Part shown: one piece after another, positions 752 through 24,594 of the stretch | Position numbering within the stretch: the first letter of the stretch is position 1 | How the letters are laid out: each line of letters starts with the position of its first letter | Source of the DNA: an uncultured Prevotellaceae bacterium | GTDB lineage: Bacteria; Bacteroidota; Bacteroidia; Bacteroidales; Muribaculaceae | Direction of reading: 5' to 3' | DNA length: 47,198 nucleotides | Assembly: GCA_900318345.1 (NCBI GenBank) | Contig: ONKD01000020.1 | Span: forward strand, 1 to 47,198 | Notes under the pieces: model-generated | What the model saw: only the letters and a program-made list of their open reading frames with translations | Database searches by the model: none | What the model was told of the DNA's origin: nothing | Translations under genes and position numbers: made by a program

Positions 752-1132
752 TTATTTTTTCTTCTTGGGACGCTTGGCACCGTACTTGCTGCGGCGCTGG
801 GTGCGGCCTTCAACACCGGCGGTGTCGAGGGTGCCGCGGATGATGTGATAGCGTACACCGGGAAGGTCCTTAACGCGGCCACCGCGTACCATGACGATTG
901 AGTGCTCCTGCAGGTTGTGGCCCTCACCAGGGATGTAGGAGTTCACCTCCTTACCGTTGGTAAGACGGACACGGGCAACCTTGCGCATAGCCGAATTCGG
1001 CTTCTTGGGCGTGGTCGTGTAAACACGAACACAAACACCGCGACGCTGCGGACACGCGTCCAGAGCGGGCGATTTGCTGGTCGATTCCAGCGCAGTGCGG
1101 CCTTTTCTTACTAATTGCTGAATAGTAGGCAT
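752..1132 (-). CDS. rpsL: 30S ribosomal protein S12
   Basis: The 126-residue product starts [20 protein letters not shown] and has the S12 signatures [19 protein letters not shown] and [16 protein letters not shown], ending in a lysine-rich tail. S12 sits at the decoding centre of the 30S subunit. The lysine positions classically linked to streptomycin resistance are the wild-type lysines (TPKKPNSA and GRVKDLPG). It is first in the str operon. The start at 1132 is preceded by about 125 nt of leader and a good promoter at 1266-1297. Confidence 0.97.
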
Positions 1133-1297: not shown

Positions 1298-1621
1298 CTT
1301 TTCGACCTTTTTATTTTATATATAATGTAAACCACAACTGATTATAAATCAGCCACATAGACTTAAATCGGTATATTTCAAGCACTTCCAACATAGTTAA
1401 ATTTATTCAAATTTCACATTATTTAACATCATTTAATCAAAATCGGAGGATTTTGATAGACTTTTTGTCCACATCTCCTACCGATATTGACAAGAGCGAG
1501 AAGCAGATTCCATAGTCGATTAAGCGCTACACAATATATAATATAAATAGTTACTTATAAAAGAATCGATATGAGTTGAAATCCATTGAGCAATGGTATA
1601 ATGAGGAACTTTTTGGCATAA
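1298..1621. other. AT-rich non-coding spacer with repeated TA-rich motif
   Basis: No coding frame is seen. It holds a TA-rich 14-mer at 1318-1331 (ATATATAATGTAAA) and 1534-1547 (ATATATAATATAAA), the second being repeated exactly at 1930-1943 on the other side of the hairpin cluster. A short palindrome CCATTG-AG-CAATGG lies at 1583-1596. Confidence 0.5.
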
Positions 1622-1905
1622 GGGGGCTTACCTTAACGGGAGAGCAGACCGACTAGCTAAACAAGGCCGACGGCCTTGAATTGAGTTAGCCCCAGGGCGC
1701 ATAGGCCTTCGGCCTATGTGGCCTGGGGTTCAGGTGCATAAAGGGATGGGCCTCGAAGAGGGCCAATCACAGCCTGATTTGTGGCCCCCTACGGGGCCCG
1801 ATTAGGATAGCATCTCTTTCACCAAGCCACGAGGACCTACGGCCCTCGCGCCATGGTGTTGGTTCAAGTCAAGGCCTACTGGCCTTGTGCAGACCTTCGG
1901 CCTGC
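1622..1905. ncRNA. Candidate structured RNA: GC-rich cluster of hairpins, unknown family
   Basis: No coding frame is seen. On the plus strand at least six stems can be drawn: 1662-1668/1672-1678 (CAAGGCC, loop GAC); 1690-1696/1722-1728 enclosing 1698-1707/1711-1720 (loop TTC); a long-range stem 1740-1748/1811-1819 extended by GGTG 1733-1736 with CACC 1820-1823; inside it 1749-1754/1758-1764 and 1783-1788/1793-1798 (loop CTAC); 1821-1825/1859-1863 enclosing 1831-1837/1841-1847; 1871-1876/1881-1886; and 1889-1895/1899-1905. Many stems share a GGCC-triloop-GGCC core. Strand is unresolved: the stems at 1690-1728 and 1740-1819 use G-U pairs that exist only on the plus strand, while those at 1831-1847 and 1889-1905 have an A-C mismatch on plus that becomes G-U on minus. 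It does not resemble tmRNA, RNase P RNA, 6S RNA or SRP RNA as I know them. It could also be a cluster of REP-like palindromes. Confidence 0.5.
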
Positions 1906-2003: not shown

Positions 2004-2318
2004 CTATTTCTTTTTGCGACTTCGGTTGGTGATGATGATTCCGGCAAGATAGACGAAAAGCAAAACAGGCAGCCCCACCAGCATGGTGACCGCAGAGTCG
2101 TCAATCAAAGCCATAAACCAAACGAAGGCCAAAGTAAACAATATCAGCACGGCGACAACGGCCCTCAGTTGCTTGATATTATACTGCTCGCGTTTCTCTT
2201 CACGTGCTGTGTTATAACCTGCAATCAACCCATCACCCTTGCCCGTCATGATGACGACGGCCAGGACGATCATCAGCAGGCTAATCGCCGATATCACGAA
2301 AATCAACGCGGCGTCCAT
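2004..2318 (-). CDS. DUF3784 family small membrane protein
   Basis: The 104-residue protein has three hydrophobic segments, at about residues 5-25, 50-70 and 78-97, separated by the conserved cytoplasmic-type segment GKGDGLIAGYNTAREEKREQ and followed by a basic end (NRSRKKK). The GKGDGLIAGYNTA signature is that of the DUF3784 family of small integral membrane proteins, whose function is unknown. It starts 11 bp after the trxB stop and is the last gene of the apparent tlpA-trxB-DUF3784 operon. The context suggests a link to envelope redox or stress biology, but that is only association. Confidence 0.75.
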   Translation of the reverse strand: MDAALIFVISAISLLMIVLAVVIMTGKGDGLIAGYNTAREEKREQYNIKQLRAVVAVLILFTLAFVWFMALIDDSAVTMLVGLPVLLFVYLAGIIITNRSRKKK

Positions 2319-2329
2319 ACAGGCATTTT

Positions 2330-3256
2330 TTAGGACAGGTACTGCTTGACGTCAATGGCGGCGCGGCAGCCTCCAGCGGCAGCAACGATGGCCTGGCGGT
2401 AGTGCGGGTCGGCCACGTCACCGGCGGCAAACACGCCCTCGACGCTGGTGGCGGTGTTAGGTCCCGTAAGCTTGATGTAGCCCTGCTCGTCAAGGTCAAT
2501 CTGTCCACCCAGGAAGTCGGTGTTAGGACGGTGGCCGATGGCGAGGAAGAAGCCATCAATGGCGATATCAAACAGTTCCTCCTTGTCGGTGCCCTTGAAG
2601 CGCACCAGGTGAGCCCCCTCTACCCCATTGTCGCCAAACAGGCCAACGGTGTTGGTGTTGAACAGGATCTCGATTTTCTCATTGTCCTTGACGCGCTGCT
2701 GCATGGCCTCGCTGGCGCGCAGGTAGTCCTTGCGCACGATGAGATAGACCTTGCTGGCGAGATGGCTCAGGTAGTCGGCCTCCTCACAGGCGGTGTCACC
2801 GCCGCCCACGACTGCCACGACCTTCTTGCGATAGAAGAAGCCGTCGCAGGTAGCGCACGCCGATACGCCCTGACCCGCATACTTCGTCTCGTCGGGCAAG
2901 CCCAGATACTTGGCGGTGGCGCCGGTGGCCACGATCATGGTGTCGGCAGTGAGTTGCTCGCCGCCGTCCAGGGTGACCAAGAACGGGCGCTGGCTCATGT
3001 CGATGCCAGCCACGAGGCCCGATTTCATCTTGGCGCCCAGGTTCACCGCCTGCTGACGCATGTTCTCCATCAACTGGTAGCCGTCAATGCCGTCGGGGAA
3101 ACCAGGGAAATTCTCAATCGTGGTTGTCTGCGTCAGTTGGCCACCCACCTGCAGGCCCTCGATGAGCAGGCAGTCGATAGCAGAACGCACCAGATATATC
3201 GCGGCTGTGTAACCGGCAGGGCCGGAGCCGATAATCAAACACTTTGTATGTTCCAT
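2330..3256 (-). CDS. trxB: Thioredoxin-disulfide reductase
   Basis: The 308-residue FAD/NADPH flavoprotein reduces thioredoxin in the cytoplasm. The N-terminal FAD-binding motif is GSGPAGYTAAIYL (about residues 11-23), the redox-active pair is C134-A-T-C137 in the sequence SACATCDGFF, the NADPH-binding motif is VGGGDTACEEA, and the C-terminal FAD motif is GVFAAGDVADPHYRQ. Length is typical. It lies 26 bp after the TlpA-like gene and 11 bp before the DUF3784 gene, all on the minus strand, with no promoter of its own visible, so it is probably co-transcribed from the promoter at 4448-4479. The short spacer before its ATG is made of repeated CTAAC units. Confidence 0.96.
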   Translation of the reverse strand: MEHTKCLIIGSGPAGYTAAIYLVRSAIDCLLIEGLQVGGQLTQTTTIENFPGFPDGIDGYQLMENMRQQAVNLGAKMKSGLVAGIDMSQRPFLVTLDGGEQLTADTMIVATGATAKYLGLPDETKYAGQGVSACATCDGFFYRKKVVAVVGGGDTACEEADYLSHLASKVYLIVRKDYLRASEAMQQRVKDNEKIEILFNTNTVGLFGDNGVEGAHLVRFKGTDKEELFDIAIDGFFLAIGHRPNTDFLGGQIDLDEQGYIKLTGPNTATSVEGVFAAGDVADPHYRQAIVAAAGGCRAAIDVKQYLS

Positions 3257-24522: not shown

Positions 24523-24594
24523 TGCGGGATGGAGCAGTGGCAGCTCGTTGGGCTCATAACCCAAAGGTCGTCAGTTCGAGTCTGGCTCCCGCTA
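24523..24594 (+). tRNA. Initiator tRNA-fMet (anticodon CAT)
   Basis: A full cloverleaf can be drawn: acceptor 24524-24529 with 24587-24592, D stem GAGC/GCTC, anticodon stem TTGGG/CCCAA around loop CTCATAA, T stem GTCAG/CTGGC with TTCGAGT loop. The anticodon is CAT. Initiator features are the three G-C pairs next to the anticodon loop and an unpaired first base pair (T1 with T72). CCA is not encoded. The D loop is short, 7 nt. Confidence 0.9.

Follow-up and report, generated by a model that had tools for sequence, protein, structure and literature searches.

A gene-less pair of inverted four-hairpin units between rpsL and trxB in an uncultured Prevotellaceae bacterium, most likely a copy of a small mobile DNA element

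Introduction

REPINs and their RAYTs are a prime case of short hairpin repeats that persist in bacterial genomes alongside a transposase, and REPINs are thought to be moved in trans by RAYTs. Among elements of the IS200/IS605 group, the ends of IS608 are single short subterminal hairpins. REP units have lengths of 20–40 or 21–65 nt according to two papers (PMC3733652, PMC6006769). In the subclass descriptions of Quentin et al. 2018 (PMC6006769), TnpA-Y1 subclass 1.2, which has the motif Y-x3-Q-x2-HH in the motif table, is described without REPs and generally without terminal structures of the IS200 type.

Here we describe a structured segment in a 47,198-nt stretch of DNA (hereafter the window; GenBank assembly GCA_900318345.1, contig ONKD01000020.1) from an uncultured Prevotellaceae bacterium. 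An earlier note had taken this segment for a candidate undescribed structured RNA. We conclude that it is most likely a copy of a small mobile DNA element and not a new RNA gene, and that the most fitting interpretation is a REPIN-like pair that lacks a gene. With a probability of roughly 80%, this copy is a non-autonomous element of a system associated with Y1 transposases, with carriage by DDE-type elements as a live alternative or addition.

Results

Structure and location of the window copy

The segment lies in an intergenic gap (1133–2003) between the S12 ribosomal protein gene (752–1132, minus strand) and the gene of a DUF3784 protein (2004–2318, minus strand); the gap measures 871 nt, not 680 bp as first reported. 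The DUF3784 gene adjoins a gene for a pyridine-nucleotide-disulphide oxidoreductase, taken as thioredoxin reductase (trxB; 2330–3256, minus strand). Folding of positions 1600–1920 gave z-scores of −5.7 on the plus strand and −6.7 on the minus strand, and 0/100 shuffles were as good on either strand. Comparison of the segment with its own reverse complement revealed one long unit, repeated imperfectly in inverted orientation. It consists of two inverted copies of a four-hairpin unit of about 123 nt, giving eight modelled stems, one of them degenerate. The hairpins of the earlier note are thus confirmed, as is the shared GGCC-loop-GGCC core that it had seen in most of them.

Unit A occupies 1644–1765 on the plus strand, outer end first (model R1, 102.3 bits, E 1.7e-22; nhmmer). 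Its degenerate H1 (1644–1660) is seen in row L001:1585-1706 of alignment A1; H2 (1662–1678, CAAGGCC-GAC-GGCCTTG), H3 (1690–1728, a long stem with a G-G mismatch) and H4 (1748–1764), all on the plus strand, were placed by the alignment and the consensus fold. Unit B (1782–1905, minus strand; model R1, 124.3 bits, E 5e-28) is inverted relative to unit A, and the same alignment and fold place its H4 at 1783–1799, H3 at 1820–1858, H2 at 1870–1887 and H1 at 1889–1905, all on the minus strand. The centre between the units (1766–1781) is the position that the transposase gene occupies in gene-bearing copies. A long-range stem proposed between 1733–1748 and 1811–1823 is complementary in the window copy, as is expected with two inverted copies present, but it falls outside the consensus pairs: its site is the H3–H4 spacer, a region that varies among the 57 aligned rows and is unpaired in the consensus fold.

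To the left of unit A is an arm (1549–1643, plus strand; its exact left end is a guess) that resembles the arm of a DDE-type carrier, or MITE, which in another genome holds pairs of this kind. A 31-codon open frame ending at 1656 was considered as the end of a gene and this reading was rejected; in 41 genomes, the sole other match to the frame was a copy in the same genome with internal stops.

At the gathering score, the structured segment matched no Rfam family, and at E<=1 there was a single chance match (19 bits, where the gathering score is 98). In the whole window, a tRNA gene (24523–24594) was alone in reaching the gathering score of an Rfam family. As far as Rfam goes, therefore, the statement that no known RNA family is represented was right. 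Whatever its origin, the element might also, passively or after domestication, terminate transcription or insulate the rpsL and trxB units from each other, a role suited to its position between two operons and to its very stable hairpins; we regard this as unlikely, as a hairpin with a T-run was absent inside the element and the sole site in the terminator scan lies outside it, at 1951–1967 (shuffles averaged 1.0).

The insertion site in relatives

We fetched 30 S12 loci, that of the window's genome included, and aligned 10 relatives. In 10/10 of these the element was absent within about 600 nt upstream of S12. The aligned relatives have one ACACATTATATATAATATA-like box in that orientation, whereas the window has two, which flank the element: an A/T-rich box at 1529–1547 to the left (direct-repeat family D1; alignment read by eye) and a second copy, 89% identical, at 1925–1943 to the right. 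These boxes are possibly a target sequence that was duplicated on insertion. An exact empty site was not found among the 10 aligned relatives, and insertion with target duplication is unproven because the sequence downstream of the box differs in them. As a separate observation, the A/T-rich boxes at 1310–1328 and 1925–1943 stand in inverted orientation upstream of S12, have counterparts in the 10 aligned relatives, and are perhaps divergent promoters.

A conserved fold with covariation

From its outer to its inner end, the unit comprises a variable H1, a nearly invariant H2 (CAAGGCC-loop-GGCCTTG), H3 with 17 pairs and a constant G-G mismatch, and an innermost H4. The alignment set of 69 distinct full-length units was reduced to 58 below 95% identity, and one unit with an internal gap was dropped to leave the 57 rows of A1. 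The RNAalifold consensus had 33 pairs, 17 of which showed double changes. In a hand-drawn structure of 37 pairs, 95.4% of cells pair (86.4% in shuffled alignments), and there were 182 cells with double changes (53.7 shuffled), 19 pairs with double changes (12.2) and a covariation score of 0.303 (0.148); further pair types were less striking (51 vs 47.6, reached by 36/500 shuffles). The observed values were reached by 0/500 shuffles on four of the five measures, a result to be read with the caveat that related rows can beat shuffles and that the structure was derived from these same rows. When the structure was slid along the alignment as a control, the paired fraction dropped to 25–52%. Pairing in H1 is lowered (89.7% paired) because some of its rows are shifted by one column in A1. 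The covarying changes that the earlier note had suggested looking for are thus present; they indicate a conserved fold and do not tell DNA from RNA.

On the outer-to-inner strand of the unit, G-T wobbles outnumber A-C mismatches by 160 to 33 (74 to 33 after removal of two columns that are mostly G-T), in a structure drawn on this same strand with G-U allowed and A-C not, a choice in favour of G-T. The excess is a hint that each unit acts on its own strand, which for the two units of a pair means opposite strands.

The strong covariation, the many hairpins and the excess of G-U over A-C (under the drawing rule just given) are what a structured non-coding RNA, for example one that regulates the adjacent rpsL or trxB operon, might present. 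Such an RNA is nonetheless highly improbable: Rfam gave no match, the 10 aligned relatives lack the segment at this place and its copies lie at unrelated ones, and, since the units are oppositely oriented, a single transcript has one of them on the weaker-pairing strand. An RNA function is not needed to explain the element. The absence in relatives, the opposite orientation and the association with transposases described below all go against the proposal of an undescribed structured RNA gene, which is not supported.

Dispersed units in the genome and the genus

A BLAST search of the window's own genome gave 28 matches at E<=10, many of them due to chance, and 13 at E<=0.01, among which are the window itself and some two-strand echoes. 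At E<=0.01, 21/61 genomes were positive; 20 of these were among the 37 same-genus genomes (own included), and the 21st (G050) had a 28-nt match inside a gene. Iterated profiles on the fetched loci defined a unit of 123 nt with 142 matches, a figure that counts overlapping loci plus weak reverse-strand echoes. A covariance model built from the 57 units below 95% identity found matches at E<=1e-5 in 62/81 genomes of the genus, with 0 to 42 per genome and 7 in the window's own, where weak matches may be units of sister types. Among 80 genomes spread over the order, only the window's own had a match, so the sequence family of the unit is confined to the genus at that sensitivity, which was lowered by stricter filters in scans over 40 genomes, with weak matches lost. 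The earlier note had named scattered REP-like repeats as one of the outcomes that would count against an RNA, and both BLAST and the model find such repeats in the same genome and genus.

Most units occur as pairs, plus then minus, with a spacing of about 17–50 nt, or of about 500 nt where they enclose a gene. In genome G035, two pairs with units about 110 nt apart enclose a piece of the transposase gene; single units and a tandem run (L084) were also found.

Association of the units with Y1 transposase genes

Pfam Y1_Tnp gave 129 matches and was present in 38/41 genomes of the genus. The set tested here comprised 68 short genes (about 150 aa) in 67 loci, several of them near-identical copies; left out were five short Y1_Tnp genes (G031:C357, G064:C218, G005:C73, G005:C79 and G003:C66) and longer or weaker matches. 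Strong units bracket the HUH/Y1 transposase gene in 9/67 loci scanned (L062, L064, L065, L070 (the same as L054), L074, L075, L076, L077 and L198), with one unit cut by a contig end in L062 and L198. Weaker unit matches were found at about twenty more transposase loci. The cluster of mobile palindromes, offered in the earlier note as the other option beside a folded RNA, is therefore supported, as the units are scattered and bracket transposase genes; the RNA gene is not.

Two Y1_Tnp matches are present in the window's own genome. One is a gene at C81 that sits between divergent, weaker units (41.5 and 49.2 bits), a unit type with further copies at C71 and C28; the other is a weak partial match at C59 in a 347-aa frame. 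This genome (90.6% complete) yielded no member of the strong-unit clade.

We placed the transposases on a tree of 66 rows that has several long branches, on which 9 rows were labelled as having strong units, 20 weak ones and 37 none (matches at E up to 0.1). The nine strong-unit transposases form one clade (support 100/99), and 13/20 of those with weak units fall in the group neighbouring it. The unit label requires 7 changes on the tree, compared with 17.4 when shuffled.

A model-free test asked whether the upstream and downstream flanks of a gene match each other in inverted orientation with a score above 1.5 times that of the best among 30 dinucleotide shuffles. This held for 48 of the 56 testable genes (of 68) and for 0/57 controls; the best shuffle was exceeded by 51/56 genes and by 5/57 controls, none of the latter by 1.5 times. 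Clear inverted flanks were missing in 8/56 genes, five of which were not above the best shuffle. Controls were window genes and the fixed stretch 1501–1878 of the S12 loci (S12 in most, not all), and many of them are consequently orthologues of one gene. A plain-shuffle version scored some of the remaining 12 genes, with L181 not above shuffles.

In a further set of 35 loci, with flank results for 29, several loci outside the genus by name were positive (L251, 63.5 vs a best shuffle of 20.5; L253, 43.0 vs 20.5; L254, 33.0 vs 21.0), one was less clear (L263, 25.0 vs 17.0) and two were not positive (L252, 18.0 vs 17.5; L258, 15.0 vs 19.5). In contigs named Planctomycetaceae and Algoriphagus, such genes lie between inverted hairpin flanks whose sequence is unrelated. 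In most of twelve chosen cases, the shared flank looked by eye like small hairpins around a long interrupted hairpin, again of unrelated sequence. Close matches to a G035 transposase came from assemblies named as uncultured Prevotellaceae, Bacteroidales and Muribaculaceae, some with a rumen label.

Two other loci deserve mention for their location. The S12 gene has a transposase with units at a distance of about 1.4 kb in G032:C50 (L123), and units at about 0.8 kb in G035:C8 (L121); these places differ from that in the window, and the region is perhaps a preferred one.

Classification of the transposase

The motif Y-x3-Q-x2-HH was present in 66/68 genes, and HuH in the form [DN]H[ILV]H in 62/68 (in the other six, the first match of the script was another string). 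In 22 chosen rows (alignment A2), both H of HuH, the Y, the Q and the two H were invariant, within a total of 12 invariant columns. Three proteins scored 57.0–64.6 bits with the IS200/IS605 model NF033573 (cut-off 55) and failed with the RAYT model NF047646 (24.0–32.7 bits, cut-off 80). At E<=1e-3, 22/22 proteins matched the NCBIfam IS200/IS605 model and 19/22 also weakly matched the RAYT model. A protein profile retrieved the ISDra2 and IS608 structures from the PDB, and not RAYT 4er8. With an AlphaFold model (pLDDT 89), a fold search ranked ISDra2 and IS608 first and RAYT-REP 4er8 30th, the TM-score of the latter (0.63) being level with that of IS608. Given this TM-score and the 19/22 weak RAYT matches, the fold does not decide the family.

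By the published motif, the genes belong to TnpA-Y1 subclass 1.2, and the description of the subclass given above, with no REPs and generally no terminal structures of the IS200 type, does not fit them. Since the subclass is listed there without REPs (PMC6006769), the pairing of transposase and unit looks new within the open-licence literature searched.

Carriers of the units

Several pairs were found inside larger elements. In G035, two copies of the transposase gene together with both units share 99.3% identity over 828 nt, although their surroundings are unrelated; with GGyTCACCyGATAAAAGGTGGGG at both ends and apparent 8-bp duplications (both by eye), they resemble a DDE-type carrier. A carrier of about 416–430 nt with other ends, ATTACTGTCC / GACACCAATG, holds six further G035 pairs, and five of these six show A/T-rich 9–10-bp duplications (by eye). 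A third kind is seen in L013/L030 and L029/L057, which share longer elements with CCTGTTTTC-type ends (by eye). Carriage of unit pairs as cargo is thus frequent. Similar arms hold another unit type in G035:C43 and G000:C49 (weak matches, by eye), and in L297 (G085:C10:2742-2847) carrier arms enclose a single H1-like hairpin and no unit (by eye), which is either an empty carrier or a collapse between palindromes. The carrier-end pattern was found in 3/61 genomes.

The target duplications seen belong to the carriers, and no conserved guide tetranucleotide or cleavage site was seen around the units. The clearest recent movements, those in G035, look like DDE-type transposition with terminal repeats and 8–10-bp duplications, not Y1 chemistry.

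The left arm of the window copy is 85% identical to G000:C33 (query 5–119), and its local score with the arm of the C33 copy is 55, compared with 19.5 for the best of 300 shuffles. It also resembles the G035 carrier arm (19.5 vs 16.5 for the best shuffle, 0/300) and is not above shuffles with the G000:C49 arm (14.5 vs 18.0, 6/300). For the right arm, 162/300 shuffles were as good with the G035 carrier and 24/300 with the C33 copy. A search for CCTGTTTTC-type carrier ends in the window did no better than chance.

Two side observations were made at other loci. In G000:C33 (L003) and C56 (L002) there is a second A/T-rich element with GTGTCATAATTC at one end, which lies beside the unit copies in C33 and inside in C56, and looks like another MITE. 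In G028:C42:618-1032 (L140, L141) the S12 match is split (residues 1–49 and 70–126, about 97 nt apart), through an assembly error, an insertion or a broken gene.

The units could then chiefly be passengers or structural components of DDE-type MITEs that a DDE transposase has spread, with the Y1 link ancient or incidental. We hold this to be possible, if rather doubtful. Pointing to it are the G035 carriers with their ends and duplications, the elements with CCTGTTTTC-type ends, the resemblance of the left arm in the window to the ATTACTGTCC / GACACCAATG kind, and the similar arms around another unit type. It leaves unexplained why Y1 genes lie between the units and why the units follow the Y1 tree, and why inverted hairpin flanks occur in the Planctomycetaceae and Algoriphagus contigs; moreover, the right arm in the window is unlike the carrier, and by eye a DDE gene with such ends was not evident in four listed loci outside G035. 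The two readings are not exclusive, as a pair of the Y1 system could still arrive as cargo.

Discussion

The system found here resembles REP/BIME/REPIN repeats and their RAYTs (TnpA-REP) in several respects: palindromes are dispersed in many copies, they form inverted doublets (here with single units and tandem runs as well), a Y1 gene is bracketed by its own repeat type (in relatives; the units of the own-genome gene are weaker), and repeat and transposase cluster together. It differs in that the unit is about 123 nt long with four hairpins, that no GT[AG]G was seen at the hairpin foot (69 units with 25-nt flanks and the 57-row alignment, by eye), that the three proteins compared are far below the RAYT cut-off and pass that of IS200, and that some species have several transposase genes per genome. 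It appears to work like a REPIN; we do not file it in the REP-RAYT family because enzyme and unit lack the defining features tested.

Subclass 1.2, as summarised in PMC6006769, shares with the genes described here a length of about 148 aa, HuH, Y-x3-Q-x2-HH and occurrence in Bacteroidetes, whereas our genes are mostly bracketed by multi-hairpin inverted units. Subclass 2.6 of the same source is also known from Bacteroidetes and has atypical flanking secondary structures with copies elsewhere in the genome; by its description it is set apart by the motif YIH[QN]NP and a median of 179 aa, neither seen here, and identity with it was rejected on the motif. The IS200/IS605 elements IS608 and ISDra2 have the closest solved transposases by profile and lead the fold search, whereas the ends found here are inverted four-hairpin units and gene-less pairs are common. 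MITEs of DDE transposons are alike in that several genomes have pairs inside carriers that end in terminal repeats and show apparent target duplications, and unlike in that the carrier ends vary between copies while the hairpin pair is constant.

In our preferred reading, a non-autonomous element of a Y1-associated system, the Y1 transposase would recognise and bind one or more hairpins on single-stranded DNA, and would cut and rejoin it at the putative ends of the element, so that gene-less pairs might be moved in trans, by analogy with REPINs and RAYTs. Against this reading stand the failure to find a strong-unit-clade gene in the window's genome, the DDE-like look of the G035 movements, the lack of a visible guide or cleavage site and of an exact empty site, the eight genes with no clear inverted flanks, and the weak RAYT matches together with the TM-score of 4er8. 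Either a Y1 or a DDE enzyme could have brought in the window copy, which may have reached the rpsL-trxB gap as cargo, since its left arm resembles the arm of a DDE-type carrier.

More broadly, transposases of subclass 1.2 could form a second REP-REPIN system in Bacteroidota and beyond, with clade-specific inverted units of several hairpins (small hairpin, long interrupted hairpin, small hairpin) and gene-less pairs spreading in trans; we see the chances of this as evenly balanced. If true, a parallel system with an IS200-type enzyme and much larger multi-hairpin units would make it possible to study which hairpin features a single-strand transposase requires, and would give a name to structured intergenic DNA in these Bacteroidales that might otherwise pass for RNA genes.
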